Source of the DNA: a virus
Direction: 5' to 3' (one strand)
IMG/VR virus record: IMGVR_UViG_3300027754_000187
Span: 1 to 42,129 of that record
DNA length: 42,129 nt
The position numbers and the translations under genes are program-made. Under the pieces are notes generated by a model, which was not told where the DNA came from, ran no database searches, and was given only the letters and a program-made list of their open reading frames with translations. Every line of letters starts with the position of its first letter. The stretch's first letter is position 1. This document shows positions 18,427 to 37,179 of this stretch, piece after piece.

Positions 18427-18450
18427 TAAACCCCTAACGAAAGGCACAAC

Positions 18451-18765
18451 ATGAAAACGCAGACGATATTAAACAACCTCACGCTAGAACAGGCTGAGGC
18501 ATGGAACGAGACAAGCGAAAAATATTTATTTGTCGATTATGAAATTGTCTCCCAGTATGGAATCAGTCTAAACAGCTTGCCAAATAACAATCTGCTAGAA
18601 GCCATTGAACGCAAATTCGAGAAACTTTTAGGCAATAGAGCAATTCCCCTGACTTATGACCAATGGCAAGAAATTGCCCGTTCTATGCAATGGGCGGAAG
18701 ATTTACCCCAATGGGATAAAGACCACGACAGAACACCGACCCCCGTAACTTGGCTAACTATTTGA
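18451..18765 (+). CDS. First gene of the accessory operon, unknown
   Basis: This 104-residue, acidic, soluble protein (NLTLEQAEAWNETSEKYLFV; YDQWQEIARSMQWAEDLPQW) has ATG 18451 behind AACGAAAGGCACAAC. It is directly under the strong promoter and is followed by a UUCG hairpin, so it is probably made in excess over the genes after it. No known family recognised. First-in-operon early phage genes are often host-takeover or anti-defence proteins, but nothing in the sequence shows which. Confidence 0.7.
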   Translation: MKTQTILNNLTLEQAEAWNETSEKYLFVDYEIVSQYGISLNSLPNNNLLEAIERKFEKLLGNRAIPLTYDQWQEIARSMQWAEDLPQWDKDHDRTPTPVTWLTI

Positions 18766-18775
18766 ATGGGTCAAT

Positions 18776-18799
18776 CTAAGCCCCTTCGGGGGGTTTAGG
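18776..18799 (+). terminator. UUCG hairpin after the first accessory gene
   Basis: CTAAG-CCCC-TTCG-GGGG-GTTTAG forms a very stable UUCG-capped stem just after the stop at 18765. Only a short T run follows, so partial termination or mRNA stabilisation is more likely than full termination. Confidence 0.55.
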
Positions 18800-18813
18800 T
18801 GGAAACATTACCA
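18800..18813. promoter_or_regulatory. Near-match to the genome palindrome, upstream of 18831
   Basis: TGGAAACATTACCA differs from TGGWAACGTTWCCA at one position. It lies between the UUCG hairpin and the Shine-Dalgarno of the next gene, a good place for an operator. Confidence 0.35.
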
Positions 18814-18830
18814 ACCACGAAAGGGAAACT

Positions 18831-19130
18831 ATGACAGTAATCAAAATTGGGCATTCGGCTTACAAAGGAACTAATGCGCTTCGCTTCTGCTTTAGTAGGG
18901 CGCAAGCTGTGCGGGTTTTATGTAATCGGGGAATGAAACGCACGCAAGCCCGCCTAGCTATTAAAGCCCTAACAGCCAAGCAAATAGGTTGCATAACGAT
19001 CAATTATGAGATCTGCGAACTGGCAGACATGACCGAAATATTAAGCAATCCCGACCTCAGAAAACAACACGGCTTTTATGCGACTACAAAGGAAATCAAA
19101 GCCACTTGGAAAAACGCACCCGAACTTTGA
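18831..19130 (+). CDS. Small basic protein, unknown
   Basis: This 99-residue basic protein (NALRFCFSRAQAVRVLCNRG; MKRTQARLAIKALTAKQIGC) looks alpha-helical and could bind nucleic acid. RBS AAAGGGAAACT precedes ATG. It is the first gene after the attenuator-like hairpin. No family recognised. Confidence 0.65.
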   Translation: MTVIKIGHSAYKGTNALRFCFSRAQAVRVLCNRGMKRTQARLAIKALTAKQIGCITINYEICELADMTEILSNPDLRKQHGFYATTKEIKATWKNAPEL

Positions 19131-19140
19131 AAGGTAAACC

Positions 19141-19347
19141 ATGAAAACATATTGCAAGCGAATACTGGCAAAAGCGCAAAAGGAATTAGACGCACCCCGC
19201 CCTTTGGGTTATGTCCTAACCAATGCCGAATACAAACGCAGACTGTATTTAATCAATCATGAAAAAGACCTCGCCCGCTTCGCTTTAGGGTTAGAGATAA
19301 CCACAGCCGAGCCACTCGAAACTTTACAGGCGGAACTCTTCGCATGA
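19141..19347 (+). CDS. Small helical protein, unknown
   Basis: This 68-residue charged helical protein (CKRILAKAQKELDAPRPLGY; EYKRRLYLINHEKDLARFAL) is introduced by a 20-bp junction, TTTGAAAGGTAAACCATGAA, repeated exactly before the gene at 21341. It overlaps the next gene by ATGA. Function unknown. Confidence 0.6.
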   Translation: MKTYCKRILAKAQKELDAPRPLGYVLTNAEYKRRLYLINHEKDLARFALGLEITTAEPLETLQAELFA

Positions 19348-19754
19348 TTTACTTAATCGCTTGCAGTAGCAAAAAAGGCACTATGCCCACGCAAGCCCGT
19401 GATTTGTATCAGGGTCAAGCCTTCAAATTCTCTCGCCAACTGGCAGAAAAGACAGGCGCAGATTATTGGATTCTCTCGGCTTTGCATGGGTTAGTTCGCC
19501 CCGAAGAAAAGATCGCACCTTATGACATTTATTTAGGTGGCATGACCAAGGCACAGCGAACCTCATGGGCAATTAAAACCGCCCAACAAATCAAACGGGC
19601 GGGACTGACTGACAGCCCCGTCACCTTCCTAGCGGGCGGGCTGTATGCCGAGCCACTAGCGCAAATCTTCACCCACGCAAATCGCCCACTTGCGGGAATG
19701 GGAATCGGGCAACAACTCAGCTATTTAAAAAACCAACTGGAAGGGAAAGCATGA
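19344..19754 (+). CDS. DUF6884-like protein
   Basis: This 136-residue protein has a pattern I know from phage and plasmid DUF6884-type proteins: IYLIACSSKKG at the start, ARDLYQGQAFKFSRQLAEKT, then DYWILSALHGLVRPEEKIAP with YDIYLGGMTKAQR, and a C-terminal VTFLAGGLYAEPL. The layout is of a small Rossmann-like domain with conserved Cys8, Lys and the LSAxHGLVxP loop. The activity is not established; a nucleotide-related role has been suspected from the fold. It is coupled to both neighbours by ATGA overlaps. Confidence 0.7.
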   Translation: MIYLIACSSKKGTMPTQARDLYQGQAFKFSRQLAEKTGADYWILSALHGLVRPEEKIAPYDIYLGGMTKAQRTSWAIKTAQQIKRAGLTDSPVTFLAGGLYAEPLAQIFTHANRPLAGMGIGQQLSYLKNQLEGKA

Positions 19755-19978
19755 AAACAGCAACATTACTAATTTACACCCCGCTTGGAACTACTGGCAT
19801 TTGTGTGGCAGTAATTTACAGACGCAACCAACTACAAGACTTTTTAGGACACAAAGCCGACCTACAAAGCCTTTTAGAAAAAGCCATTGTTTACCTAGAA
19901 AACCAAAAATTTACCCGCTTGAAGGTAAACGGCAAGATTTACAACTTTAAAGACTTTTTAATGAAAGGCACAGCATGA
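19751..19978 (+). CDS. Small protein, unknown
   Basis: This 75-residue protein (LIYTPLGTTGICVAVIYRRN; TRLKVNGKIYNFKDFLM) is mixed alpha/beta and weakly basic. It starts at a GCATGA junction, where the upstream product ends in Ala and the stop and start overlap, and it ends in the same junction. No family recognised. Confidence 0.6.
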   Translation: MKTATLLIYTPLGTTGICVAVIYRRNQLQDFLGHKADLQSLLEKAIVYLENQKFTRLKVNGKIYNFKDFLMKGTA

Positions 19979-20160
19979 AAACCATCACAGTCAAAATAAA
20001 ACAGGTCTACGGCAATACAGTCGCATACCCCGTGTGCGAACAATCCCGACTACTGGCACAGCTTGCGGGAACTACCACGCTAACCATTCAAGCCCTTAAA
20101 ACCATCAAAGCATTAGGCTTTGAAGTAATTCAAGAAACCCACCAACTGCAAGGAATCTAA
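19975..20160 (+). CDS. Small protein, unknown
   Basis: This 61-residue protein (ITVKIKQVYGNTVAYPVCEQ; SRLLAQLAGTTTLTIQALKT) has a beta start and helical end. It is coupled upstream by GCATGA. No family recognised. Confidence 0.6.
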   Translation: MKTITVKIKQVYGNTVAYPVCEQSRLLAQLAGTTTLTIQALKTIKALGFEVIQETHQLQGI

Positions 20161-20163
20161 ACC

Positions 20164-20334
20164 ATGAAACTATTAAACGGGATCGCCCTAGTCGCTTCGC
20201 TGTATTTATTCCCATTAACTTTTTTTGGGTTTATCTATCACGCTTTTACGGGCTTGCAAGCCCTTGTTTTAATCGGGTTTAGCCTGATCGCTTCATTCTA
20301 TTTCGCCCATCAAGTAACTATCCACAAGGACTAA
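20164..20334 (+). CDS. Small membrane protein, two transmembrane helices
   Basis: A 56-residue frame starts at ATG 20164 (MKLLNGIALVASLYLFPLTF) three bases after the previous stop. It is almost entirely hydrophobic: residues 4-27 and 29-49 (TGLQALVLIGFSLIASFYFA) form two membrane helices, with a short polar end (HQVTIHKD). A tiny two-helix inner-membrane protein in an early operon could act on host envelope or superinfection; a holin is less likely in this position. Function unknown. Confidence 0.65.
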   Translation: MKLLNGIALVASLYLFPLTFFGFIYHAFTGLQALVLIGFSLIASFYFAHQVTIHKD

Positions 20335-20339
20335 ACACC

Positions 20340-20837
20340 ATGCAATTACTATCCAAAATTTTAGGTGACGCAGACCATTTGCCCGAACTTTACAAAACGA
20401 GTTGGCATTACAACCCGAAAGAATCGGCACAAAAAAACCTAGAAGGTCGCACCCATTATGTCGAACCCTCTACGCTTCGCTACTTTAACTCTCGCATTGT
20501 CTCGGCTTTGCCAGTAACAAACGGGGCTTTTTTTAAGATTGTCGAATCACTAAGCCTAGACCACAACAACACAAAACGGGGCTTTCGGGCTGTTCTTTTC
20601 GACATTTTTGGAACTGTGGTCTATCGCCCCGACCTAGACCAATGTTTTACAAGCACAGAAAAAGCTAATAAAGGGTTTTTTTGGTGGTTTGAAACCTTTA
20701 ACGAATTCGAGCATTATCACAATGCAATTACTTGGAAACTTCAAAAGGTGGAAAAAGAACAAATGCAACTAGCCGAGGTTTTGCAGACCTTGAACCAAAT
20801 ACCCTACACCCTTACAGAAGAGGAACTTACAGCATGA
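20340..20837 (+). CDS. Conserved-looking phage protein, unknown
   Basis: This 165-residue soluble protein (LPELYKTSWHYNPKESAQKN; FRAVLFDIFGTVVYRPDLDQ) is rich in aromatic residues, including KGFFWWFETFNEFEHYHNAI. It begins 5 bases after the membrane-protein gene and ends in a GCATGA junction. The VLFDIFGTV string resembles a haloacid-dehalogenase motif I (DxDGT) but has Ile and Phe where the second Asp belongs, so I do not call it HAD. Function unknown. Confidence 0.65.
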   Translation: MQLLSKILGDADHLPELYKTSWHYNPKESAQKNLEGRTHYVEPSTLRYFNSRIVSALPVTNGAFFKIVESLSLDHNNTKRGFRAVLFDIFGTVVYRPDLDQCFTSTEKANKGFFWWFETFNEFEHYHNAITWKLQKVEKEQMQLAEVLQTLNQIPYTLTEEELTA

Positions 20838-21040
20838 AACCGCAATTTTTATTCTATTTTGAACACGAACCCGAAAGGGTTGCAGTAGATGACCGACAGC
20901 GCACAGCCCGTATGCTTCGCAGTTACCGCAACAAGCCCGCAGACTATCAGATCACCCGCACAGCCCCGAATTCTTACAGCGTAAGGGTTAAGGGTTTCCC
21001 CAGTCCCATCATCATTCATTCACAGGAAAACATAGCATGA
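20834..21040 (+). CDS. Small basic protein, unknown
   Basis: The start is ATG 20834, overlapping the upstream stop (GCATGA), giving 68 residues; longer frames begin inside the previous gene. The protein is Arg-rich (RVAVDDRQRTARMLRSYRNK) with a beta-like end (SYSVRVKGFPSPIIIH). No family recognised. Confidence 0.6.
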   Translation: MKPQFLFYFEHEPERVAVDDRQRTARMLRSYRNKPADYQITRTAPNSYSVRVKGFPSPIIIHSQENIA

Positions 21041-21330
21041 AATTACAACTAGACAACGACCCCGAAGTGTATCTATCGGGAAGTGGTGAAAAGTGGACAA
21101 TTATTTGTCAGGGTTCGCCCCTTTGCGACTACAAAAAAACAGCTTTTGAAGCCCTAGCAGTAGCCAAAGAATTCAAGATGCAACCGCACTCTTTTTACTG
21201 GGACTCTACCGAACTGGCATTTATGCCCCGCTCAGATGTAGACCATTTTCAAGCAGACGAGGCACAAGCCTTCACCCTTACACACTCGCCTAGCCCCGCC
21301 CCTAAAGACACAACCCGCCCCCTATTTTGA
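21037..21330 (+). CDS. Small acidic protein, unknown
   Basis: This 97-residue protein (LQLDNDPEVYLSGSGEKWTI; AFEALAVAKEFKMQPHSFYW) has a beta-hairpin-like start and a Pro-rich end (SPSPAPKDTTRPLF). It is coupled upstream by a GCATGA junction. No family recognised. Confidence 0.6.
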   Translation: MKLQLDNDPEVYLSGSGEKWTIICQGSPLCDYKKTAFEALAVAKEFKMQPHSFYWDSTELAFMPRSDVDHFQADEAQAFTLTHSPSPAPKDTTRPLF

Positions 21331-21340
21331 AAGGTAAACC

Positions 21341-21538
21341 ATGAACAATAACCCAATGATCGCCTACCACGCCCGCAAAGATAATACGGGATGGCGGGAG
21401 GTATGCCGATACCCCGCCAACTGGGAAGGATGGCACAGCTTTGATAAATCCATGATCGAAGAACTATTGACCAAAGGTGAAAGCGTTGTCACTTGCGGAT
21501 GGAATATGTATCAGGTATTGAAGGAATCCACACAATGA
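21341..21538 (+). CDS. Small protein, unknown
   Basis: This 65-residue protein (YHARKDNTGWREVCRYPANW; SVVTCGWNMYQVLKESTQ) is rich in Trp and Tyr. It follows the same 20-bp junction, TTTGAAAGGTAAACCATGAA, as the gene at 19141. It overlaps the next gene by ATGA. Function unknown. Confidence 0.6.
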   Translation: MNNNPMIAYHARKDNTGWREVCRYPANWEGWHSFDKSMIEELLTKGESVVTCGWNMYQVLKESTQ

Positions 21539-21732
21539 ACCACGCACCCGCACAATACATAAATGCGGGTTATTCCTACGAGTTAGGAAGAACCCCCGCC
21601 CAATCCCTCCGCACCATGCTAGAGGCTGAGAGCCTAGAAGATCGCACCGAAGCCCGCCAACTGATAGAAACTGGCAGAAAAGAGGCACGAAACCGCCCAA
21701 GTCATACGCTATCAGAAGGAAAAAACCGATAG
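21535..21732 (+). CDS. Small charged protein, unknown
   Basis: I use ATG 21535, overlapping the upstream TGA, giving 65 residues. The protein is hydrophilic and helical (TPAQSLRTMLEAESLEDRTE; ARQLIETGRKEARNRPS). An 85-bp gap with a palindrome-like site (TGGAAACGATTACCA, 21744-21758) follows. No family recognised. Confidence 0.55.
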   Translation: MNHAPAQYINAGYSYELGRTPAQSLRTMLEAESLEDRTEARQLIETGRKEARNRPSHTLSEGKNR

Positions 21733-21817
21733 AAAAATAAAATTGGAAACGATTACCACAACCCACAATATACCTGATATATTTCCCTTCCCACTAACAC
21801 CTAGAAAGGTAAACAAA

Positions 21818-21985
21818 ATGAACGCATACCAAGCCAACGGCTTCAGAGATCGCAAAGACTATTTGGAATCGCTTTGTGAAGAATACGACCGCACGATTGT
21901 GCTAACACTGGCAGATTTGCTAGGGCAATCAGAAGATTTTGATGGATTAGTTACCAGTTTAGAAGATTATTCAGAAGGATATTAA
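21818..21985 (+). CDS. Small acidic protein, unknown
   Basis: The start is ATG 21818 behind AGAAAGGTAAACAAA, giving 55 residues; the longer upstream frame lacks a ribosome site. The protein is acidic (RKDYLESLCEEYDRTIVLTL; FDGLVTSLEDYSEGY). The 21733-21817 gap holds a palindrome-like site. Function unknown. Confidence 0.6.
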   Translation: MNAYQANGFRDRKDYLESLCEEYDRTIVLTLADLLGQSEDFDGLVTSLEDYSEGY

Positions 21986-21987
21986 CA

Positions 21988-22311
21988 ATGAAACTATTTA
22001 AAAACCCACGGGGGAACTGGGCTTGCGAATCGCAGATCGATCTAACAGACGATTTGGTTTTGATCATTCACACGACCAAAAGATTTTCGGGAAACCTAGT
22101 CACCACGGCACAAGTAGCCAAGTTGGAAACAAATGGGTGGACTTCACACAAACCATTCTCCGACTTCAATAAAACGCTAATCAGCGAATCACGCAAAGCC
22201 ACGCAAAAAGCCACTAAGGAACAGCACGAAAGGGTTTTTAGTGACCTAGACACATGGCAAGAACTCAGATATCAAGCCATTGATTTTTACAACCAACCCG
22301 CAACTATTTAA
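21988..22311 (+). CDS. Small protein, unknown
   Basis: This 107-residue protein starts with beta-type sequence (MKLFKNPRGNWACESQIDLT; DDLVLIIHTTKRFSGNLVTT) and ends helical (SESRKATQKATKEQHERVFS). It begins two bases after the previous stop. No family recognised. Confidence 0.65.
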   Translation: MKLFKNPRGNWACESQIDLTDDLVLIIHTTKRFSGNLVTTAQVAKLETNGWTSHKPFSDFNKTLISESRKATQKATKEQHERVFSDLDTWQELRYQAIDFYNQPATI

Positions 22312-22323
22312 GGAGAAACCATC

Positions 22324-22893
22324 ATGCCAAATTGGTGCAACAACGAATTAACTATTTCCCATCCCGACAAAGCCATGATCGACCGAGCAATAAATGCTTG
22401 GAATACTGGCAGATTTTTAGATGAATTTATCCCTGTGCCATTCGACCTAAAAGAAACCATCAAAGGTTTTTTAGGTGGTAATGATCAGAAGGAACTGGAA
22501 GAAAAGCAGAGGCGCAATGTAGAGCAATACGGATACGCAACATGGTGGGACTATTGCGTAAACGAATGGGGAACTAAGTGGGATATCGGCAAGAGCCAAG
22601 ACTACGACAACGAGCCAACCATTCTCAGCGATAACAGCTTCCATGTTTACTTTGATTCCGCATGGTCGCCCCCTGTAAATGCTTATTACAAATTAGTGGA
22701 CATGGGTTTCAAGATCGAAGCCTATTACTTTGAAGGTGGTATCGGTTTTTGGGGAGAGTTTAAAGATGGTGAAGACCACGAATTTAGCGCAACCAGTTAC
22801 GAAAGAATACCGACCGACATACGGGAAATGTTCGGCATTGAACCGCCCGAAGATGAAGAGGAAAACGAAGAAGTGAAGGAGATCCAAGAATGA
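22324..22893 (+). CDS. Api92-like protein (DUF1281/YubB ferredoxin-like fold)
   Basis: This 189-residue protein begins MPNWCNNELTISHPDKAMID, the hallmark start of the Api92/YubB family. It has FIPVPFDLKET, WWDYCVNEWGTKWDIGKSQD, FDSAWSPPVNAYYKLVDMGF and YYFEGGIGFWGEFKDGE, matching the usual WGTKWD...FxTAWSPP...G.....Y.E.G..F.G order. The C-terminus is Glu-rich. The family is common on phages, plasmids and integrative elements beside anti-restriction genes; its biochemical function is not known to me. RBS AAGGAGAAACCATC. Confidence 0.85.
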   Translation: MPNWCNNELTISHPDKAMIDRAINAWNTGRFLDEFIPVPFDLKETIKGFLGGNDQKELEEKQRRNVEQYGYATWWDYCVNEWGTKWDIGKSQDYDNEPTILSDNSFHVYFDSAWSPPVNAYYKLVDMGFKIEAYYFEGGIGFWGEFKDGEDHEFSATSYERIPTDIREMFGIEPPEDEEENEEVKEIQE

Positions 22894-23393
22894 AAATCGA
22901 ATTAAAAAACATCAAGTATTCAGAGTTTGCAAGTGAAGAAACTAACTGCTACGAGGCAACGATCTACATTGACGGCAAAAAGGTGGGGACTGTAAACAAT
23001 GGCGGGAAAGGTGGATGCGACAACATATATCCCTACGAAGTAGAGACACGCATAAACCAATACGCTAAAACTTTGCCAGTTCGCAAGTTGGGCTTTATAG
23101 ATCCGCAGACGGGCAAAGAATTTGAATGCCCGCAATCCGCAGAAACTATCTTCGGTGAACTAATGGATGACTACCTACATGGCAAGGATCTAAAGAAAGC
23201 ATTGAAGACAAAGATTCTTTTTATGCGGGATAAACAAGTGTGGGAAACCAAGCGCATGGATGCCATTACTTTCAAAGCCACTCTAGCAAAAGGCAATGAT
23301 GAACTAATCAAGAACCTAAAAGCTGAAGTGATTCTTAATTTTCTACCAATGGACAAAGCATTACAGCTTTACAAGGAAGGATCTAGACCATGA
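22890..23393 (+). CDS. Conserved mobile-element protein, unknown
   Basis: This 167-residue protein starts MKIELKNIKYSEFASEETNC and has YEATIYIDGKKVGTVNNGGK then GGCDNIYPY, a pattern I have seen in proteins of Betaproteobacterial phages and plasmids. A beta-rich N-half leads to a basic helical C-half (DLKKALKTKILFMRDKQVWE). It is coupled to the Api92-like gene by ATGA. Function unassigned. Confidence 0.7.
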   Translation: MKIELKNIKYSEFASEETNCYEATIYIDGKKVGTVNNGGKGGCDNIYPYEVETRINQYAKTLPVRKLGFIDPQTGKEFECPQSAETIFGELMDDYLHGKDLKKALKTKILFMRDKQVWETKRMDAITFKATLAKGNDELIKNLKAEVILNFLPMDKALQLYKEGSRP

Positions 23394-23521
23394 CTATTTA
23401 CATTTTGCTAGAAGATGGGGAATTCGTTTCCGCCTACCGCACCCGCAAAGAGGCTGAGAAATCAGCAATAGAAAACGACATTCGCAATATGCACATTATT
23501 GAAACCACTTTAAGAGGTTAG
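23390..23521 (+). CDS. Very small protein, unknown
   Basis: This 43-residue frame (MTIYILLEDGEFVSAYRTRK, EAEKSAIENDIRNMH) starts with an ATGA overlap on the upstream stop and has RBS AAGGAAGGATC. It has the same beta strand plus E-A-E-K helix layout as the three paralogues at 23524, 23721 and 26051 and may be a shortened relative. Confidence 0.55.
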   Translation: MTIYILLEDGEFVSAYRTRKEAEKSAIENDIRNMHIIETTLRG

Positions 23522-23523
23522 AC

Positions 23524-23712
23524 ATGAAAACATTCCAAATCTTTCAAACAGTAAGTTATGAATATTTTGTTGAAGCTGAATCAGAAGAGCAAGCAAAAAA
23601 TAAAATTTTATGTAACCGATTAACTCCCAGTAGTGAAGAACTCATTGAATGGGTTTACGCAGACGAACATGATGGGGTTAATTGGACATATGAACCAGTA
23701 ACAAATTCATAG
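23524..23712 (+). CDS. Small protein of a three-copy family (EAESEEQA)
   Basis: This 62-residue acidic protein (MKTFQIFQTVSYEYFVEAES, EEQAKNKILCNRL) shares with 23721-23900 and 26051-26236 a beta strand ending in Y..(F/Y).(V/I)EA, an (E/N)EE.A helix and a following (D/E)-rich strand. RBS AAGAGGTTAGAC precedes ATG. Probably a small alpha/beta domain; function unknown. Confidence 0.65.
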   Translation: MKTFQIFQTVSYEYFVEAESEEQAKNKILCNRLTPSSEELIEWVYADEHDGVNWTYEPVTNS

Positions 23713-23720
23713 GGGAAAAC

Positions 23721-23900
23721 ATGAAAACATATTTAGTAAATGCTAGTTATTTGACCTATTGCAGAGCATTCATAGAGGCAGAAGATGAAGAACACGCATT
23801 AGACCTAGCGCACGAAATGGGTGGAGATGGGTTTAAACAAGAAGGTTTGGGTGACTGGGAAATTGATTCAATAACTGAAATGGAGGTGCAACATGGATAA
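23721..23900 (+). CDS. Small protein of a three-copy family (EAEDEEHA)
   Basis: This 59-residue frame starts at ATG 23721 behind AGGGGAAAAC: MKTYLVNASYLTYCRAFIEA, EDEEHALDLAHEMGGDG. It is the nearest paralogue of 23524-23712 and lies directly after it, which suggests tandem duplication. It overlaps the next gene by 8 bp. Function unknown. Confidence 0.65.
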   Translation: MKTYLVNASYLTYCRAFIEAEDEEHALDLAHEMGGDGFKQEGLGDWEIDSITEMEVQHG

Positions 23901-24390
23901 ATTTTGGCAAGACGCAGAGCAGAAATACAAAGCTATTCAACTGATGGGCTTAGAACTAATGGGCAAGACCGATACGATCATGCCCATGCTCAAAGGCTTT
24001 GTGCTTGAAGGCAACGAGGTGGGACAGTTTCCCGACTTACTGGCAATGTTTTTATACAACGACAAGCAGACGGCAGACTCAGCCGATTTGCAAAAGTATG
24101 TAGATCAAGCCATTGAACAGATCAAGAGCAATAGGGAAGTAAACAAAGATGTTTACGAAATCCCTATGGATGTTCTAGAAAAGAAATACCACGGCTGTGG
24201 CAACGGCATAGCAGTAATTGACAAGACAACCCGCAAGGTTATCGACATTGATTACACGACCGCAAGGCTGAAGGTAATAACCGAGCAGAACATTTCCATG
24301 TGCAAGTCTGCGGGCAAGATCATTAAGGAAGACGAGAAAACGATTACCTATCGTGCTAACTTTTCGTCATGCCAAGTCTGTTTATTCTAG
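23893..24390 (+). CDS. Accessory protein, unknown
   Basis: This 165-residue protein has a helical N-half (KFWQDAEQKYKAIQLMGLEL; QKYVDQAIEQIKSNREVNKD) and a beta-rich C-half (CGNGIAVIDKTTRKVIDIDY). It ends in cysteines (SSCQVCLF). RBS GGAGGTGCAAC precedes ATG 23893 inside the previous gene. No family recognised. Confidence 0.65.
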   Translation: MDKFWQDAEQKYKAIQLMGLELMGKTDTIMPMLKGFVLEGNEVGQFPDLLAMFLYNDKQTADSADLQKYVDQAIEQIKSNREVNKDVYEIPMDVLEKKYHGCGNGIAVIDKTTRKVIDIDYTTARLKVITEQNISMCKSAGKIIKEDEKTITYRANFSSCQVCLF

Positions 24391-24398
24391 GGGATGCA

Positions 24399-24716
24399 AT
24401 GACCGAGAAATGGATTGTATGCAGTGGTAATTTGCTCGAAGGGCATGAATTCTATGGGCAGTTTAGTTCGCACGAACAAGCGCAAGAGTGGGGGCAAAAA
24501 AACTTTGATGTATCGGGTTTCCATATAGCAAAGATGCGCCCCATTCTTAACATAGAAAAGATGACAAGCAGTGAATGGATTGCATACAGAGAAGAAAAAC
24601 TACACGACTACTTTGCATCAGGAAAGGAATTAGTTCCAAATCCTAAGTGCAAACAATGCGACACGCATAACGACTATGTGTGTTTTTACTGTGAACTACA
24701 TCAAATGGGGGAATAG
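24399..24716 (+). CDS. Small zinc-finger-like protein, unknown
   Basis: I use ATG 24399 (MTEKWIVCSGNLLEGHEFYG) behind AGGGGATGCA, giving 105 residues. The middle is mixed (HEQAQEWGQKNFDVSGFHIA). The end has four cysteines and histidines in PKCKQCDTHNDYVCFYCELH, a likely zinc ribbon. Function unknown. Confidence 0.6.
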   Translation: MTEKWIVCSGNLLEGHEFYGQFSSHEQAQEWGQKNFDVSGFHIAKMRPILNIEKMTSSEWIAYREEKLHDYFASGKELVPNPKCKQCDTHNDYVCFYCELHQMGE

Positions 24717-24717
24717 C

Positions 24718-24975
24718 ATGAAAAAACAAATCACCGACTGGAAATTAGTAATCCTGTGGGATGACGATCAACGAGAGATCATGGGCAATTCGTTACCAGA
24801 ATGCGTTAAGGATGAAATCAATACGCACTTAAACGAATTGGAAGACTTGCGGGAAGAACACGACTTAGGCTTGCGAGATTGGGCATACAGCTTTACGCAT
24901 GACCGAGAGGATTCGGTAGACGCAATGCAATGGAACGCATACACCGCCCCGAAGTTTGAACCCGCAGAGGAGTAA
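24718..24975 (+). CDS. Small acidic protein, unknown
   Basis: I use ATG 24718 (MKKQITDWKLVILWDDDQRE) behind GGGGGAATAGC, giving 85 residues. The protein is acidic and helical (IMGNSLPECVKDEINTHLNE; DLREEHDLGLRDWAYSFTHD). No family recognised. Confidence 0.6.
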   Translation: MKKQITDWKLVILWDDDQREIMGNSLPECVKDEINTHLNELEDLREEHDLGLRDWAYSFTHDREDSVDAMQWNAYTAPKFEPAEE

Positions 24976-24978
24976 ACC

Positions 24979-25368
24979 ATGCTAACAGAAGACTACGAAA
25001 AAATTGCCAGTAAACACGATCTATTGCTTAGCGATCCGCTTATTAACTTTGCGGATGATGTAACAGAAGAACGAATGAAGTATGTTATTCGTCAGCTTTT
25101 ATTGGATTACAGCCCGAATGAACTAGATCGCTTGACGGGATTAGATGAGACAACTTGCCTAAAGATTTGCCATGAAATGATTGTCAAAGATCATGGGCTT
25201 ACGAACCCGAAGGATTGGAAAGCCCAACAAGTAGACGAGAACCTATGGGGAATCTATGGGGATGCATGGGGGGAATGGATAGACGATAGCGGAAACTTTC
25301 TATGCTTCGACAGTAAAGAATTGGCAGAAGAATATATCAACGAGGAGATCCCTAAATGCTCACGATAG
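24979..25368 (+). CDS. Accessory protein, unknown
   Basis: This 129-residue acidic protein (YEKIASKHDLLLSDPLINFA; YVIRQLLLDYSPNELDRLTG) is mostly helical. Its C-terminal half, with DENLWGIYGDAWGEWIDDSG, looks like a small beta-domain. RBS GCAGAGGAGTAAACC. It overlaps the next gene by 13 bp. No family recognised. Confidence 0.65.
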   Translation: MLTEDYEKIASKHDLLLSDPLINFADDVTEERMKYVIRQLLLDYSPNELDRLTGLDETTCLKICHEMIVKDHGLTNPKDWKAQQVDENLWGIYGDAWGEWIDDSGNFLCFDSKELAEEYINEEIPKCSR

Positions 25369-25610
25369 AACAGCTTCAAAAGGTTGCCAGTATGTTAATC
25401 AAAGCATACCGAACCGAAATTGTGCGGGATGAGGATTGGTGGTTTTATTTGGATGATTGTTGTTTCAACATACACAACAACGGCAGAGAAGGCACAGGGG
25501 ATTACAGCATAAATGTTTACGGGTATGACAGCGAAGATAGAGCCGACTATTCACATTGGATAGATTTACAACCAACTTATTTAGGATTTGAAAATGAACT
25601 ATGTATGTAA
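25356..25610 (+). CDS. Small acidic protein, unknown
   Basis: This 84-residue protein (IEQLQKVASMLIKAYRTEIV; DWWFYLDDCCFNIHNNGREG) is aromatic-rich and acidic. Its start lies inside the previous gene, with CGAGGAGATCC as ribosome site. It overlaps the next gene by 17 bp. Unknown. Confidence 0.6.
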   Translation: MLTIEQLQKVASMLIKAYRTEIVRDEDWWFYLDDCCFNIHNNGREGTGDYSINVYGYDSEDRADYSHWIDLQPTYLGFENELCM

Positions 25611-25779
25611 TGGGTATTGGAAAGACACAAAGGAAAACTTTATTGGAATGGTTGTCTCAGATCAAGAATGGGATGGATTAGAAGACGCAAAAGATGAGCG
25701 CATTTTCTACTACACGGATGGATTCCCAGTAACAGGGGATCATGGGGAATTTGTAATAACAGAAGGAGTATCAGCATGA
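25594..25779 (+). CDS. Small acidic protein ending in GVSA
   Basis: I use ATG 25594 (RBS TTAGGATTTGAAA), giving 61 residues (MNYVCNGYWKDTKENFIGMV). The end, VITEGVSA, is encoded by the junction AGGAGTATCAGCATGA, which also supplies the Shine-Dalgarno and start of the next gene. The same junction occurs twice more. Function unknown. Confidence 0.6.
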   Translation: MNYVCNGYWKDTKENFIGMVVSDQEWDGLEDAKDERIFYYTDGFPVTGDHGEFVITEGVSA

Positions 25780-26054
25780 AGACACGCAACTTAACTTTTC
25801 ACGCAGACCCCGCACACGGGTGGTTAGAAGTATCTCTCGCAGATATCCACGACTTTGGAATAGGTGACAGGATTAGCCGTTACTCTTACATCAAGGGTGA
25901 TCGCGTATTTCTAGAAGAAGATTGTGATGCGGGAGTCTATCTAGAAAAAGCTAAAGAGGAAGGGTGGGATATCTCTGTTACAGAAAAGCATACGAACCAC
26001 GATTCTTTTATCCGCAATCTTGCCAGTTTCCCACGCATGGGGGTATCAGCATGA
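25776..26054 (+). CDS. Accessory protein ending in GVSA
   Basis: This 92-residue protein (NLTFHADPAHGWLEVSLADI; HDFGIGDRISRYSYIKGDRV) reads FLEEDCDAGVYLEKAKEEGW towards its end and stops in MGVSA at the second copy of the GTATCAGCATGA junction. The HADPGHGWLEV...YSY.....VFLEEDCDAG pattern is one I have seen in small plasmid and phage proteins; no function is assigned. Confidence 0.65.
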   Translation: MKTRNLTFHADPAHGWLEVSLADIHDFGIGDRISRYSYIKGDRVFLEEDCDAGVYLEKAKEEGWDISVTEKHTNHDSFIRNLASFPRMGVSA

Positions 26055-26236
26055 AAAAAGAATTTATAGTTAAAAAATTAGTTGAGTATTTATACACGAT
26101 TGAAGCCAACACCAATGAAGAGGCTGAAAACATTGCATCTTATTTAGATTGTGGCGATAACTTTCAAATGACAACCATTGATATTTCTGCCGAAAGTTTG
26201 GAAGACTATCAAATTAGCTTAGGAGTATCAGCATGA
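26051..26236 (+). CDS. Small protein of the three-copy family, ending in GVSA
   Basis: I use ATG 26051 (ATGA overlap), giving 61 residues; a longer frame begins within the previous gene. MKKEFIVKKLVEYLYTIEAN then TNEEAENIASYLDCGD matches the paralogues at 23524 and 23721 (beta strand, EAxxxEEA helix). It ends in LGVSA at the third copy of the AGGAGTATCAGCATGA junction. Confidence 0.65.
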   Translation: MKKEFIVKKLVEYLYTIEANTNEEAENIASYLDCGDNFQMTTIDISAESLEDYQISLGVSA

Positions 26237-26421
26237 ACATTCAAGATAAACATATACATGGTAATGGAAACAAATTTATTTTGGTGGTTACTTATGACGA
26301 GGCAGAAGACTTGGGCTTTGCTTTGCAAGATGTAATTGAAGATCTAGGCACAGGTAAACGCAAGGCAGAAGAAGCTACTGATACCTATTTTTATGGCTTT
26401 GAAATTAACGGGGGAAAATAA
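26233..26421 (+). CDS. Small protein, unknown
   Basis: This 62-residue protein (MNIQDKHIHGNGNKFILVVT; YDEAEDLGFALQDVIEDLGT) is acidic with a beta strand then helix layout. It starts in the third GTATCAGCATGA junction and ends touching the next start. Unknown. Confidence 0.6.
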   Translation: MNIQDKHIHGNGNKFILVVTYDEAEDLGFALQDVIEDLGTGKRKAEEATDTYFYGFEINGGK

Positions 26422-27047
26422 TGAACACAATAGAACGAGAGGCATTCGCAAACTCATACTGCGGGAATGTAGCGCACCATCAATATAAAGAAGTGATGGA
26501 ATTTTTAGAGGAATATTTTAAAACCGATCACATGAATTATTCATGCGACTACACAAGCATTGTTGATTCACTAGGAGTTTGGCGGGATGCCAAAGACTAT
26601 CAGAAGAAACTATCCGAGCTTTATTACATAGAGAAAACCTTCACCGAGAACACGGGTGGCGGGTGTATGGTGGACTTTATCCAACTGAAAGATGGTAGGT
26701 GCATAGGATTAAATGATGAATGCATGGTGGTCTATCCTTCATATAACCTTTTCTATCACGATCACCTTTCCACTATCAACTTCCCAGTTATCAAGTTTGA
26801 GCCATGCTTACATGAAAGACACGAACCATACTGCCCCGCAAATGATGGGTTTCCCTGTAAGTGTTGGGACATTGACTACATAGCAGAGGTTGCATTAAAT
26901 TCAGCTTGTGCCAAGATCCAAGAAATGTTAGATGTTCCTACTGGCACTCTTGCGGGAGAAGTCTTTAGTGGACAAAAGGGTGAGAATATTGGAGAGATCC
27001 TAAAGGATTACATAGCACAAGAAATGAACGCTAAACTCAACCCATGA
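26421..27047 (+). CDS. Cysteine-rich accessory protein, unknown
   Basis: At 208 residues this is the largest protein of the accessory operon. It has clustered Cys and His in CLHERHEPYCPANDGFPCKC (about 125-145), which could bind a metal, flanked by IKFEP and WDIDYIAEVALNSACAKIQE. The N-half is helical (YKEVMEFLEEYFKTDHMNYS). RBS GGGGGAAAATA. No family recognised. Confidence 0.65.
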   Translation: MNTIEREAFANSYCGNVAHHQYKEVMEFLEEYFKTDHMNYSCDYTSIVDSLGVWRDAKDYQKKLSELYYIEKTFTENTGGGCMVDFIQLKDGRCIGLNDECMVVYPSYNLFYHDHLSTINFPVIKFEPCLHERHEPYCPANDGFPCKCWDIDYIAEVALNSACAKIQEMLDVPTGTLAGEVFSGQKGENIGEILKDYIAQEMNAKLNP

Positions 27048-27250
27048 CCAAACCCGCAACAACCCTGTTCGCCCTGTTCCTGATGGAAGATGAGGATGGT
27101 AATGTTACCGCCCGCTCTGACTTCGTGGGACAAGGGGAGAACGCATTCGATCTAGGGATGGAGATCATAGGCAACCTCCAATTCCTAGAGTCCATGAATA
27201 GGAAACACCTACGGGTGGAGAAGTGCCTACTATCTTCCTACCATAATTGA
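27044..27250 (+). CDS. Last accessory-operon gene, unknown
   Basis: This 68-residue protein (TTLFALFLMEDEDGNVTARS; DLGMEIIGNLQFLESMNRKH) is coupled upstream by ATGA. Its final 21 bases overlap the 3' end of the convergent primase gene. A near-match to the genome palindrome, TGGTAATGTTACCG, is at 27097-27110. No terminator is visible between the two operons. Confidence 0.6.
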   Translation: MTKPATTLFALFLMEDEDGNVTARSDFVGQGENAFDLGMEIIGNLQFLESMNRKHLRVEKCLLSSYHN

Positions 27251-30342: not shown

Positions 30343-30489
30343 TTATTCATTACCCATTGCCCAACCCGTACAGAATGCGATCCACTGCATCTGTATTCTT
30401 GGGTGACCATACCTCTTGCCGTTCCATTTCATCTCACTTTTCCCCTTGGTTGCCATCCAAAGCTCAAACTTCTGTCGAATCTTCTCCAT
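30343..30489 (-). CDS. Very small basic protein, unknown
   Basis: This 48-residue frame starts at ATG 30489 behind GGAAGGAAAAAAAG: MEKIRQKFELWMATKGKSEM, then KWNGKRYGHPRIQMQWIAFC. The charge is basic, with several Trp. It overlaps the next upstream gene by 26 bp and ends 9 bp before the ParB-like start. Length, ribosome site and dense packing support it; function unknown. Confidence 0.55.
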   Translation of the reverse strand: MEKIRQKFELWMATKGKSEMKWNGKRYGHPRIQMQWIAFCTGWAMGNE

Positions 30490-30640
30490 CTTTTTTTCCT
30501 TCCCTAATAATTGGTGATTGTTTTATTGCTTCGTACTTAGCCTCTTCATAACCTATTTCGTAGGCATTCATGGCTAAGGTCACAGCGTTATCGTCTACGC
30601 CAGTCAGTCTTAACAGGCTTGCTAGGTCTTCTTTTTTCAT
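30464..30640 (-). CDS. Small protein, unknown
   Basis: This 58-residue acidic helical protein (MKKEDLASLLRLTGVDDNAV, TLAMNAYEIGYEEAKYEA) begins with an ATGA overlap on the membrane-peptide gene upstream. Its end overlaps the following gene by 26 bp. Function unknown. Confidence 0.55.
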   Translation of the reverse strand: MKKEDLASLLRLTGVDDNAVTLAMNAYEIGYEEAKYEAIKQSPIIREGKKDGEDSTEV

Positions 30641-30738
30641 TCTTCGCTACTCATCATAAATATTGCTACACCGATAATCACCACGATTGCACCACCCATG
30701 ACAAGCAACATAACTGCCCAAGCAACTGTTTCAAGCAT
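30637..30738 (-). CDS. Single-span membrane peptide
   Basis: This 33-residue frame (MLETVAWAVMLLVMGGAIVV, IIGVAIFMMSSEE) is one continuous membrane helix with an acidic end. ATG 30738 has AGGAGAACAAG before it and overlaps the upstream gene by 8 bp and the downstream gene by ATGA. Very small phage membrane peptides often modulate host processes; no specific role can be inferred. Confidence 0.55.
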   Translation of the reverse strand: MLETVAWAVMLLVMGGAIVVIIGVAIFMMSSEE

Positions 30739-30946
30739 CTTGTTCTCCTAGTTCTGCAAGTTTCTCTTCCAATCTACGGATGCGCTGACGGTTGTATTCA
30801 ACTACGCTAGTAGCGTACTCAAGGGACTTCTCAGCTTGCATCTTGCATATAGTTGCATCCCGCATCTCAATATCAATAATCTCTCTGAGCGTGCGCGGAC
30901 GCAACATATCTTTGATAAAGGCTACCAATGTTTCTCGTTTAGTCAT
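30731..30946 (-). CDS. Small coiled-coil protein, unknown
   Basis: This 71-residue charged protein (TLVAFIKDMLRPRTLREIID; SLEYATSVVEYNRQRIRRLE) has a coiled-coil C-terminus with an acidic end, AELGEQDA. It is coupled to both neighbours by overlaps. Small coiled-coil genes in this part of phage genomes are usually unassigned. Confidence 0.6.
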   Translation of the reverse strand: MTKRETLVAFIKDMLRPRTLREIIDIEMRDATICKMQAEKSLEYATSVVEYNRQRIRRLEEKLAELGEQDA

Positions 30947-31119
30947 GTGTTCTTGCTCCTTAGTTTGTTACTGATATACGCCACAAGTTTGCCCATCGGG
31001 ATGCGTCCGCTACCCTCTTCTTTGAACGCAACCCAACGCTCAACTTCCTCTACCTCCTCATCCGTCAGCCCAACCCAAGGTCGCTTGTAGTCTTGGATGT
31101 CATCGTCATCTTCAATCAT
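30943..31119 (-). CDS. Small acidic protein with PWVGLT motif
   Basis: I use ATG 31119 (MIEDDDDIQDYKRPWVGLTD) behind GGGGGCAAGC, giving 58 residues. The PWVGLTDEEVEEVERWVAF segment recurs as PWVGLTIEDVKVIED in the gene at 31820-32179. This motif is frequent in small hypothetical phage proteins; its function is unknown. Confidence 0.6.
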   Translation of the reverse strand: MIEDDDDIQDYKRPWVGLTDEEVEEVERWVAFKEEGSGRIPMGKLVAYISNKLRSKNT

Positions 31120-31310
31120 GCTTGCCCCCTTGCTCTGATTGCATCGCCGTATGTACCACCACCTTCTTTCAGTATGTGGTCTACAAACTTTGCACACGCC
31201 TCACGCTCGGCTTCTATCGCTGGCTTGAGCATATCTATCGCTGTCTCATGCAACTTTTGTTGTATCTGTAACATCTCTGTCAACTTGGCAATCATTTCAT
31301 CTTGTGTCAT
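31116..31310 (-). CDS. Small coiled-coil protein, unknown
   Basis: This 64-residue protein (MTQDEMIAKLTEMLQIQQKL; AEREACAKFVDHILKEGGGT) has the pattern EAEREACAKxxD..A....A..I..RGQ. I recognise this in many small phage proteins where the end reads like CAxxxE..G..YA.AIRARG. Function unassigned. ATGA overlaps couple it on both sides. Confidence 0.65.
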   Translation of the reverse strand: MTQDEMIAKLTEMLQIQQKLHETAIDMLKPAIEAEREACAKFVDHILKEGGGTYGDAIRARGQA

Positions 31311-31483
31311 GTGTTCTTCTCCTTGTTTCTATCCCACTGTTCACCAAACAATTCGTCACCCATAGCCCACTGCAAGAGCATGGTGTACATGAGTCCTTCA
31401 CCGCCAGTTTCATAAGACCGCTCTGCCCAGTACAGGCTGTTGTTCTTTGCGCCTTCTATGTATTGCTCTCTAGTTTGGCTCAT
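31307..31483 (-). CDS. Small protein, unknown
   Basis: This 58-residue frame (MSQTREQYIEGAKNNSLYWA; GGEGLMYTMLLQWAMGDELF) starts at ATG 31483, overlapping the upstream stop. It ends in an ATGA overlap with 31116-31310. Function unknown. Confidence 0.6.
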   Translation of the reverse strand: MSQTREQYIEGAKNNSLYWAERSYETGGEGLMYTMLLQWAMGDELFGEQWDRNKEKNT

Positions 31484-31827
31484 GCTTGTCCCCTGCCATC
31501 TGGATGCTCATTAAACTCATCTACAGCCTGTTGGTGCGCTTGTGGTACGTTGCGTTTTAAATAACGCATGGCAGTTCTTTTCCAATGGGGCAAATTTACA
31601 CAACTCTTGAAGATAATTTCGTTGGCCTCTTTCAACATCAGCGCCAGTTGTTTCTGATGCTCCATCACTTCATCTCTTTGTTTACACGCTTGTTCATATA
31701 AAGCGTATAGGGTTTCAATACCGTTTTGCTCACGCTCAGGCAACGGATGCCCCGATAGTTTGTATGCTTCGTCACGCCATATCTGTGCGCGTTTTTTGTG
31801 GTATTCACAGGTGGAACAGTCAGCCAT
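31480..31827 (-). CDS. Cys-motif helical protein, unknown
   Basis: I use ATG 31827 (MADCSTCEYHKKRAQIWRDE) behind GGAGAAGAACA, giving 115 residues. It has a CxxC near the start, a coiled-coil middle (CKQRDEVMEHQKQLALMLKE) and a basic end (HWKRTAMRYLKRNVPQAHQQ). The pattern suggests a small zinc or nucleic-acid-associated protein. No family recognised. Confidence 0.6.
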   Translation of the reverse strand: MADCSTCEYHKKRAQIWRDEAYKLSGHPLPEREQNGIETLYALYEQACKQRDEVMEHQKQLALMLKEANEIIFKSCVNLPHWKRTAMRYLKRNVPQAHQQAVDEFNEHPDGRGQA

Positions 31828-35133: not shown

Positions 35134-35373
35134 GTGATGGATGAAAAGTTAGATAGAGAATTTGAAATCATAGAAAGGGCTAATGCTTTAGCCAAGAAAT
35201 TTCTAAATGACATGATGGTAGATGGTGATCCGCCTACCGTATGGGTTACAACATTTATGACTGGGGCGGCCATGTGTGCTTGGGCTGAAGAAATGTCAGA
35301 GAAAGATTTTTTGGAAGGGTGCAAATATTCTTATGTGGCGTATAAAGAATTATTTGATGGGATGCATAAATGA
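35134..35373 (+). CDS. First gene of the recombination operon, unknown
   Basis: This 79-residue acidic protein (REFEIIERANALAKKFLNDM; AMCAWAEEMSEKDFLEGCKY) is helical. RBS CAGGAGTTGTGTG. It lies directly under a strong promoter and is coupled to the nuclease gene by ATGA. No family recognised. Confidence 0.65.
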   Translation: MMDEKLDREFEIIERANALAKKFLNDMMVDGDPPTVWVTTFMTGAAMCAWAEEMSEKDFLEGCKYSYVAYKELFDGMHK

Positions 35374-36239
35374 AGTTAACGAATAAATTTAATCTACCCC
35401 AGACGTTTGTCAATGTAATCAATCGTCCAACTTACTCTAAAGGTAAGTCAAACATCTCTGCTACTGAAATGCTTAACAGCCCTCGCATAGTTCAGTTAAA
35501 GAGAAAGCATTGGGACAGCATAGAACAGGATGCATCTGAGATGGTGTGGTCACTGTTTGGCTCTGCCGTTCATAACATTTTGGAACATGGCAAGGGTGAC
35601 AACCATATCGTTGAGGAAAGACTCTTCACTGCTGTAGATGGGTGGACTCTCTCAGGCGCTATTGATCTTCAAGAAGTTGAAGAGGACGGCATAGTTATCA
35701 AAGACTACAAGGTAACAAGTGCTTGGGCTGTATCAAATGAGAAACAAGACTGGCACGATCAGCTAAACATCTACGCTTGGCTAGTGCAAACAGTCAAGAA
35801 GAAACCAGTCAAGGCCGTTCAGATTGTGGCCATAGTAAGAGACTGGTCTGCGCGTGAGGCACAGAACAAAGAAACCTATCCTCAATCTCCCGTAGTGGTA
35901 ATAGATATCCCACTATGGGACTATGAGAAACAGGATGAGTTTATTAAGAAGAGAGTAGGGCTTCACTCCGAGGCTTACTTCGAGATGGATACAGATGGAA
36001 ACCTACCAGACTGTACGCCAGAGGAAATGTGGGAGAAGACCACAACCTACGCCGTTAAGAAAGACGGCGGAGTTAGAGCCAAATCAGTTCATCAAACAAT
36101 GGCTGATGCGGAAGTTGCCCTACCAGCAAAGGGTTACTTTATAGAAGTCAGAGAAGGCGAGAGGACACGCTGTGCAAACTACTGTCAGGTCAGCCAATTC
36201 TGCAATCAATATCAAACCTACCTAAAGGAAAAACCATGA
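35370..36239 (+). CDS. Cas4/RecB-like PD-(D/E)XK exonuclease
   Basis: This 289-residue protein has the RecB/Cas4-type nuclease core: LFGSAVHNILEH (His68), LSGAIDLQEV (Asp99) and VIKDYKVTSAW (Asp112-Tyr-Lys114), then QLNIYAWLV as the following QxxxYxxL motif. Near the C-terminus RTRCANYCQVSQFCNQY with an earlier Cys (PDCTPEE) could hold an iron-sulphur cluster, as in Cas4. It would resect DNA ends for the ERF annealing protein two genes downstream, a phage recombination pair like lambda Exo/Bet. No cas genes or CRISPR are present. Confidence 0.85.
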   Translation: MKLTNKFNLPQTFVNVINRPTYSKGKSNISATEMLNSPRIVQLKRKHWDSIEQDASEMVWSLFGSAVHNILEHGKGDNHIVEERLFTAVDGWTLSGAIDLQEVEEDGIVIKDYKVTSAWAVSNEKQDWHDQLNIYAWLVQTVKKKPVKAVQIVAIVRDWSAREAQNKETYPQSPVVVIDIPLWDYEKQDEFIKKRVGLHSEAYFEMDTDGNLPDCTPEEMWEKTTTYAVKKDGGVRAKSVHQTMADAEVALPAKGYFIEVREGERTRCANYCQVSQFCNQYQTYLKEKP

Positions 36240-36505
36240 ATCGAATAATCATTGATGTAACAAAAGGCGAACTGGACTTCATGCGTGAGGCGCTAGTTTC
36301 TAAACACATAAACATGATGACCTATCTTCAGACCTGTGAAGAAGATATCAAAAGCGCAGAAGAAGAGATTGAAAAAGAAATAGAAGAATATCTTTCCGAC
36401 AACCCCATACAAAAACCAAAGAAGCCATTTGTCTTTAAGCGCAAAGCGCCGTTTGGCCTAAAGAAAGACGGCACACCTAAAGCTAAACCCGGAAGGAAAG
36501 TATGA
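36236..36505 (+). CDS. Small acidic-then-basic protein, unknown
   Basis: This 89-residue protein has an acidic coiled-coil middle (EEDIKSAEEEIEKEIEEYLS) and a basic Pro/Lys-rich end (PIQKPKKPFVFKRKAPFG, then KAKPGRKV) that could bind nucleic acid. Coupled by ATGA on both sides. Its position between exonuclease and annealing protein suggests a recombination helper. Confidence 0.6.
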   Translation: MNRIIIDVTKGELDFMREALVSKHINMMTYLQTCEEDIKSAEEEIEKEIEEYLSDNPIQKPKKPFVFKRKAPFGLKKDGTPKAKPGRKV

Positions 36506-37179
36506 CAGTATTTAAGAAACTACAGACAGCGAGATACGAACTATCTCAAGCCAATGTAAAGAAGTCAGGCCACAATTCATTTGGTGGTTGGAAGTATTAC
36601 GAACTGGGGGACTTCATCCCCACGATTAATAAGATCTTCAACAACGTAGGACTGTGCGGAGTATTTACATTTGGCGAGACAGCTACGCTCACGATCTACG
36701 ACACAGAGGACTCAACCTCTATACAGTTCTCTACCCCTATCGTCTACGCTGAATCAAACAAAGGTCAGCCCATCCAGCTATTGGGTAGCACACATTCTTA
36801 TCTTCGGAGGTACCTCTGGTTGATGGCGATGGAGATCGTGGAAACCGATCAGGTGGATTCAGAACAACAGGAAGTCAAACCAGAGCCAATCAAGATCGCA
36901 CCCAAGAAACCGCCCGCAAGGATAGAAGGTAAAGAGGGGCCTTGGTATATAAAGGTAGAGGCAGATCCTGATGTAAACATGAACACTTGGCTAGACCTAG
37001 TGACCGAGGCATTCCGCCTAGCTTTATCTCAGGCACAGACTGAGCGGGATGTTTTAGATATCTTCAAGTTCAACAAGAACATTTTCGACAAGTTGGAGAA
37101 AGAAGCGCCAGATGACTTTGCCGGTTTGATGGCTAGTTTCAAATCCGCAAGAGAGGCTTTTAAGAAAGGTACAACATGA
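36502..37179 (+). CDS. ERF-family single-strand annealing protein
   Basis: This 225-residue protein has the ERF N-domain: HNSFGGWKYYELGDFIPTIN, a strand pair GVFTFGETATLTIYDTEDST, then PIQLLGSTHSYLRRYLWLMA, matching the family's GxxYYxLxDxxxxxxP...GSaxSYxrRYAL motifs. A Pro/Lys-rich linker (about 130-145) and a C-terminal domain with NKNIFDKLEKEAPDDFAGL follow. It anneals single strands after end resection and supports phage recombination. Coupled by ATGA to both neighbours. Confidence 0.9.
   Translation: MTVFKKLQTARYELSQANVKKSGHNSFGGWKYYELGDFIPTINKIFNNVGLCGVFTFGETATLTIYDTEDSTSIQFSTPIVYAESNKGQPIQLLGSTHSYLRRYLWLMAMEIVETDQVDSEQQEVKPEPIKIAPKKPPARIEGKEGPWYIKVEADPDVNMNTWLDLVTEAFRLALSQAQTERDVLDIFKFNKNIFDKLEKEAPDDFAGLMASFKSAREAFKKGTT

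Follow-up and report, generated by a model that had tools for sequence, protein, structure and literature searches.

Whether tailed phages swap genes at their borders through short homology, or whether joining is random and selection follows, is an old question. It is raised by a stretch of 42,129 bases from IMG/VR virus record IMGVR_UViG_3300027754_000187 (hereafter the window), in which an accessory operon of small genes is punctuated by short joints, each comprising the end of one gene, a Shine-Dalgarno sequence, a spacer and the start of the next gene, and in which some of these joints recur letter for letter. A preliminary description of this DNA had proposed that such repeated junctions promote gene shuffling by homologous recombination, and that the operon may act as an exchangeable cassette array. 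The comparisons reported here, between the window, its close relatives and more distant loci of the same phage family (designated by L numbers), indicate that the operon probably recombines at short seams in the joints, as a stack of accessory genes gained and lost singly or in pairs.

Gene Gain and Loss in Close Relatives

Comparison of the window with L306/L314 and L082, which are 94-96% identical to it, revealed five gene-precise differences, and every breakpoint of these gains and losses lies inside a joint, between the Shine-Dalgarno sequence and the first codons (Table 1), where the preliminary description had advised looking for it. L306 and L314 read GAAAGGCACAGCATGAAAAC where the window reads GAAAGGGAAACT ... 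gene 18831 ... GAAAGGTAAACCATGAAAAC. L082, without gene 25594, reads AGGATTTTCAGCATGA at the position of joint J1; in its combined loss of genes 26051 and 26233, AGGAGTATCAGCATGAACA is joined directly to gene 26421, so that the window's J3 joint stands on the following gene. The L306 joint before gene 19141 is letter-identical to the window joint before gene 19975 (GAAAGGCACAGCATGAAAAC), and its joint before gene 19751 is CTTGAAAGGTAAACCATGAAAACA, a type found before genes 19141 and 21341 in the window. Since joints of L306 match window joints of other genes, joint types swap places between phages that are otherwise ~95% identical. As an observation apart, L306 and L314, which come from different metagenomes, end at one base, right after ATGAAAACA of gene 19751 (window 19751-19759), which suggests a population branch point at this start codon.

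Backbone gene order of the window is mostly kept in 24 relatives (863 concordant vs. 148 discordant pairs), and an exchangeable array, as the preliminary description called the operon, therefore means that genes of the window are gained, lost and now and then relocated, without shuffling freely. The clear order outlier is gene 25776, whose homologues lie near 19975/20340 in most relatives. The combination that was to speak against the proposal, conserved order with non-conserved junctions, came out divided: order is mostly conserved, and orthologous places do not keep the same joint sequence, yet the same joint types occur elsewhere in other phages.

The position of the seam can be read from alignments of one gene in different neighborhoods. 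When the upstream neighbors are unrelated, identity drops immediately upstream of the ATG, the Shine-Dalgarno sequence excepted; when the downstream neighbors are unrelated, identity runs through the ribosome-binding site to the ATG and drops just past it. These profiles define the exchange unit as the gene body plus the ribosome-binding site of the next gene, and the aligned sequences place the seam at the start codon, with the ribosome-binding site traveling with the upstream gene. The sole distant homologue of gene 26051 (L353, 67%) ends with GTTTAGGAGTAACAGCATGA where the window has GCTTAGGAGTATCAGCATGA, and a different gene comes next in L353.

Repeated Joints Within the Window

Two joints recur in the operon as exact copies, TTTGAAAGGTAAACCATGAA twice, with no further window copy at up to three mismatches, and GTATCAGCATGA three times (25768-25779, 26043-26054, and 26225-26236), with 0.01 expected in either case, a dinucleotide-shuffle expectation that overstates the surprise because the ATGA overlap and a Shine-Dalgarno sequence at fixed spacing already set part of the string. 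Copies 1 and 3 of GTATCAGCATGA are preceded by AGGAG and copy 2 by GGGGG, and the proteins of the upstream genes 25594, 25776, and 26051 end in TEGVSA, MGVSA, and LGVSA, respectively. Both repeats had been correctly noted in the preliminary description, as the 20-bp sequence before genes 19141 and 21341 and as the sequence that joins three gene pairs (before genes 25776, 26051, and 26233), has AGGAG ahead of it in two cases and gives the upstream proteins a GVSA end. The GCATGA joints that it listed at 19751, 19975, 20834, and 21037 are likewise present, with one more at 19344, and it had overlooked GAAAGGCACA(A/G)CATGAAAAC, which lies ahead of both 18451 and 19975 (19/20 nucleotides alike). 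Within the window, GTATCAGC, three times, and AAAGGTAAACC, twice, are found within a few nucleotides upstream of starts and in a single orientation. GC precedes ATG in 8/11 ATGA overlaps of the operon, vs. 22.6% at other accessory genes of the relatives (p = 6e-4) and only 7.9% of ATGA overlaps at structural genes.

A fairer background for joint sharing is provided by start pairs taken from different genomes of the family. At least 8 nucleotides upstream of the ATG are common to 276 of 54,200 pairs within a locus (0.5%), a count that leaves out homologous gene pairs, vs. 44 of 216,800 pairs between genomes (0.02%) and 4 of 5,365 pairs among structural genes; for sharing of at least 12 nucleotides, the corresponding counts are 174/54,200, 23/216,800, and 1/5,365. 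As the excess appears within loci, and neither between genomes nor among structural genes, joints are repeated in excess only within genomes and only at accessory genes.

Stereotyped joints were also encountered in a second accessory operon (window 30343-33942, - strand), namely AGGAGAAGAACACATGA at 31310, GGAGCAAGAACACATGA at 30946, GGGGGCAAGCATGA at 31119, and GGGGACAAGCATGA at 31483. Elsewhere on the - strand, AAAGATGTGCTA lies ahead of two gene starts (window 6134-6145 and 7006-7017), and L306 is rearranged there as well; the ~60 bp upstream of both copies are similar, so that the genes upstream of the two copies are related at their 3′ ends.

Arrays of AGGAGATCAGACG in Sister Lineages

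Sister contigs within the family, whose portal is 60-64% identical to that of the window, carry an exact 13-mer, AGGAGATCAGACG, directly before the start codon (ATG/GTG) of 2-9 genes per contig, typically in the form TAGGAGATCAGACGATG, in which the stop codon falls inside the repeat. Copies number 1-9 in sister contigs and all lie on one strand per contig. Arrays such as those of L139, L138, L134, L130, and ~46 further loci consist of small genes in an order that is permuted between contigs. Among 50 distinct arrays, a number that is no frequency estimate because the arrays were partly found by motif search, 185 headed genes fall into 55 families, neighbors are scrambled, and both orders are seen for 8 family pairs. 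Mean adjacency conservation is 18% at AGGAGATCAGACG joints vs. 50% at repeat-free small-gene joints of the same loci, and order reversals amount to 16/162 vs. 4/1,015. Across AGGAGATCAGACG, the identity profile is a step function, with 100% identity within the repeat by construction, as an exact repeat was required. Other lineages have other joints, for instance GGAGAAGAACAC, which recurs in many relatives and has one copy in the window, before gene 31116-31310 (- strand). A scan for GGRGTATCAGCATGAA, mostly single-copy in other contigs among the matches listed, was not used as evidence.

A host origin of the 13-mer was considered and rejected: it is no repeated element in bacterial genomes, with 20 single-copy matches, near chance, in 257 Gb, and a literature search on it returned unrelated papers only. 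Recent horizontal transfer of AGGAGATCAGACG cassettes was also rejected as a general rule, since cassettes do not exceed other shared genes in similarity (87/201 locus pairs); single cases are suggestive of such transfer (96% cassette identity vs. 58% elsewhere).

Breakpoints Across the Family and Competing Explanations

An all-against-all comparison of family loci yielded 326 clean gene-size indels, 175 of them distinct. Both ends lie within -25..+10 of a called start in 106 of the 175, where random re-placement of inserts of the same length gives 2.9 +/- 1.8, and in 56 the offset to the start codon is the same at both ends, i.e., the breakpoints are in exact register. Over -20..+11, the joints that flank an indel are more similar (0.446) than start pairs drawn at random from the same locus (0.391, p = 4e-5) and, by a smaller excess, than pairs equally many genes apart (0.406, p = 0.004); beyond the start, over +12..+60, there is no difference. 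The exact run shared at in-register breakpoints averages 6.0 nucleotides, vs. 2.6 for other start pairs of the same locus at the same offsets (1000 simulations, maximum 4.0) and 4.2 at a random position of the same pair (p = 0.001), a result unaffected when the AGGAGATCAGACG clade is left out. Conspicuous shared flanks are 34 bp around a 335-bp gene in L160, 26 and 22 bp in L416, and 20 bp in L351. Precise boundaries, an in-register excess of homology, joint types that swap places and scrambled order at AGGAGATCAGACG joints are direct observations.

Several results weigh against recombination at the joint seams as their explanation. The excess of joint similarity depends on the ~15% most similar pairs and vanishes without the 15 most similar joint pairs, exact runs are of at most 4 nucleotides in 21/56 in-register events, and numerous indels share hardly any sequence or none at all. 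On average, the similarity of cassettes is no higher than that of other genes shared by the same loci, so that the data do not establish recent transfer between phages as a general pattern. Finally, selection that keeps reading frames and ribosome-binding sites intact would, on its own, also put surviving breakpoints at start codons.

This last point underlies the strongest alternative, the classic account of phage mosaicism (PMC3029335), according to which illegitimate recombination strikes anywhere, survivors keep their frames and ribosome-binding sites, and joints look alike since good ribosome-binding sites look alike. It accommodates the many breakpoints that share at most 4 nucleotides, as well as the raised identity at Shine-Dalgarno positions in every comparison. 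It is nevertheless unlikely to suffice, given that in-register shared runs exceed both nulls, that joint sharing is a lineage-specific excess within genomes and not a general convergence, that exact 13-bp joints, spacer included, occur up to nine times per genome, and that the repeat-free small-gene joints of the same loci shuffle far less. A role of joint homology in driving exchange, beyond mere selection of its products, is favored, though not proven.

The repeated joints might alternatively bind an RNA or a protein of the phage or its host that controls translation or transcription, recombination being a by-product. Their location at the Shine-Dalgarno position of non-structural genes only and their multiplicity are indeed those of start-associated sequences, as far as the published account of these describes them (PMC3203893). 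A regulatory element is improbable, however, because the repeat differs by lineage, is not conserved at orthologous genes and tracks the 3′ end of the upstream gene rather than the gene supposedly regulated. That the repeats are relics of tandem gene duplication is highly improbable, even though similarity is slightly higher between neighboring joints than between distant ones and a few operon proteins (23524, 23721, and 26051) look alike by eye, for past +12 the similarity of coding sequence does not exceed the random level (0.272 vs. 0.270) and the excess of joint sharing within loci was computed without homologous gene pairs.

Recombination Genes and Proposed Mechanism

For recombination at the joint seams, both the enzyme and the causal role of homology are inferred here. 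Genes for an exonuclease and an Erf-like protein (Table 1) are present in 12/14 contigs examined, including all seven long AGGAGATCAGACG contigs; no tyrosine recombinase (PF00589) was detected in 14 contigs and no serine recombinase (PF00239) in 13. Rad52-like phage recombinases, an Erf included, can recombine homologous sequences that are short and diverged (De Paepe et al., 2014; PMC3945230). The homology minimum for Red-beta is 23-27 bp, and efficient pairing by Red-beta or RecA needs 23-34 bp (PMC3945230). Repeats of 12-20 bp are below the latter requirement, a further point against the reading preferred here, and ordinary homologous recombination is not an obvious route. The gene shuffling put forward in the preliminary description is partly supported, by breakpoints in joints, flanking joints that are more alike, the relocation of gene 25776 and scrambled AGGAGATCAGACG arrays; its appeal to homologous recombination in the ordinary sense is not supported as worded. 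As most seams are shorter than the published minimum, annealing or template switching at short homology in replication, followed by selection for intact translation, is favored.

Under such a mechanism, small accessory genes would come and go, one or two per event, in units that run from the ATG of a gene to just short of the ATG of the next. Because the unit reaches the next ATG, the 3′ end of each gene holds the ribosome-binding site of its successor. The stretch of Shine-Dalgarno sequence, spacer and ATGAA, short and near-identical at every joint, would act as the seam where two joints align. As the phage replicates, annealing or template switching, probably through the phage exonuclease and the Erf-type annealing protein, would then connect the upstream portion of one joint with the downstream portion of another. 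Frame, start codon and Shine-Dalgarno spacing would all be preserved, and reuse of joints could spread one joint sequence, such as GTATCAGCATGA three times in the window or AGGAGATCAGACG up to nine times per sister genome.

A broader reading is possible, and we advance it tentatively: these phages may possess a cassette system without a site-specific recombinase, in which the ribosome-binding and start sequence serves both as translation signal and as exchange seam, every cassette closes with the ribosome-binding site of the one that follows, the seam is fixed per lineage (AGGAGATCAGACG in one clade), and genes are gained, lost and permuted with translation unbroken.

The Window and Its Phage Family

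Besides the operon, the window encodes a terminase, a portal protein, a primase, a helicase, the exonuclease and the Erf-like annealing protein. Its portal is ~40% identical to those of Pelagibacter phages HTVC027P and HTVC023P, Planktothrix phage Pag-Yong1, 023Pt_psg01, and DSL-LC04. The family is a large one of water-borne, mostly uncultured phages, and related viral contigs of 57-65 kb suggest that the window is incomplete. At the DNA level, the operon had no match in the annotated phage collection. Defence and Pfam scans of its proteins returned mainly DUF6884, for gene 19344; this protein (window 19344-19754) matches PADLOC model PDC-M57A and, weakly, DpdC. The proteins at 23524-23712, 23721-23900, and 26051-26236 share an MKT/MKK start followed by an EAE..EEA stretch, and possibly form one small-protein family.

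Table 1. Operon, joints, genes and candidate recombination functions in the window
Feature	Position	Strand	Remarks
Accessory operon	18451..27250	+	~30 small, tightly packed genes, mostly of no known function; 11 joints are ATGA overlaps; based on gene calls and gap table
Joint GAAAGGCACAACATGAAAAC before gene 18451	18439..18458	+	
Gene 18831 (99 amino acids)	18831..19130	+	Absent in L306/L314; both ATGs have in-register breakpoints, -13..-2
Joint TTTGAAAGGTAAACCATGAA before gene 19141	19126..19145	+	Stop of gene 18831, Shine-Dalgarno, spacer, start
Joint GAAAGGCACAGCATGAAAAC before gene 19975	19963..19982	+	Same 20-mer before gene 19141 in L306
Second TTTGAAAGGTAAACCATGAA copy, before gene 21341	21326..21345	+	Exact 20-mer match
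Gene 24399 (105 amino acids)	24399..24716	+	Absent in L082; breakpoints -6..-4 of both start codons
Extra-gene site	24976..24978	+	L082 has one additional gene, a 220-bp insert in the joint, between 24975 and 24979
Gene 25594 (61 amino acids)	25594..25779	+	Absent in L082; breakpoints -5/-6 of start codons
Joint J1 AGGAGTATCAGCATGA	25764..25779	+	End of gene 25594 / start of gene 25776
Gene 25776 (92 amino acids)	25776..26054	+	Between J1 and J2, i.e., GTATCAGCATGA on either side; 75% discordant order
Joint J2 GGGGGTATCAGCATGA	26039..26054	+	End of gene 25776 / start of gene 26051
Genes 26051 and 26233	26051..26421	+	Lost together in L082; join in register at ATG, -1..+8
Joint J3 AGGAGTATCAGCATGA	26221..26236	+	End of gene 26051 / start of gene 26233
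Exonuclease (phrog_2139)	35370..36239	+	Candidate recombination partner
Erf-like single-strand annealing protein (phrog_155)	36502..37179	+	Candidate recombinase

Comparison with Known Systems

Integron gene cassettes are small promoterless genes arranged in arrays of variable order, with a recurrent element, the attC hairpin site, between them. The arrays described here resemble them in their small genes, recurrent separating element and varying order, and differ from them in that no integrase/resolvase family was found in the contigs examined and that the element, instead of an attC hairpin, is a ribosome-binding site of 13 bp. A clade with perfect 13-bp punctuation and scrambled order offers a natural setting in which to test how mosaic phage genomes arise.

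In common with systems of relaxed, Rad52-like recombination, the window phage has genes for an exonuclease and an Erf-like protein; its seams, mostly of 5-20 bp, are unlike the substrates of those systems, for which the Red-beta minimum is ~23-27 bp (PMC3945230). In the boundary (linker) sequence model of lambdoid mosaicism, short conserved sequences at gene borders are sites of homologous exchange; Island3 and Brujita, for example, have ~50 bp in common at a gene border, and at most mosaic borders boundary sequences are not identifiable (PMC3029335). The gene-content breakpoints reported here also lie in short shared sequence. Unlike lambdoid borders (PMC3029335), they can be recognized, are located at translation starts and permit comparison with nulls, so that border sequences, which usually are not found, become findable, countable and testable against controls in hundreds of contigs.

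The closest parallel in form is given by the start-associated sequences (SAS) of cluster K mycobacteriophages, whose function is unknown and for which a role in translation was proposed in the part of the report that deals with them (Pope et al., 2011; PMC3203893). As described there, SAS are short, asymmetric, Shine-Dalgarno-containing repeats a few nucleotides before the ATG, in multiple copies, in one orientation and at non-structural genes only, and gene families occur both with and without the repeat, all of which applies to the joints of the window and its sisters. They belong to other phages and have another sequence, their consensus GGGATAGGAGCCC not being matched by window or sister joints, and they are more numerous, with 11-19 copies per genome vs. 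2-3 per type in the window and 1-9 in sister contigs (PMC3203893). The joint repeats of the present family coincide with gene gain, gene loss and order breakpoints, an aspect beyond the SAS account insofar as that part of the report presents it, and thereby suggest an exchange function for the repeated start-associated sequences of other phages (PMC3203893).

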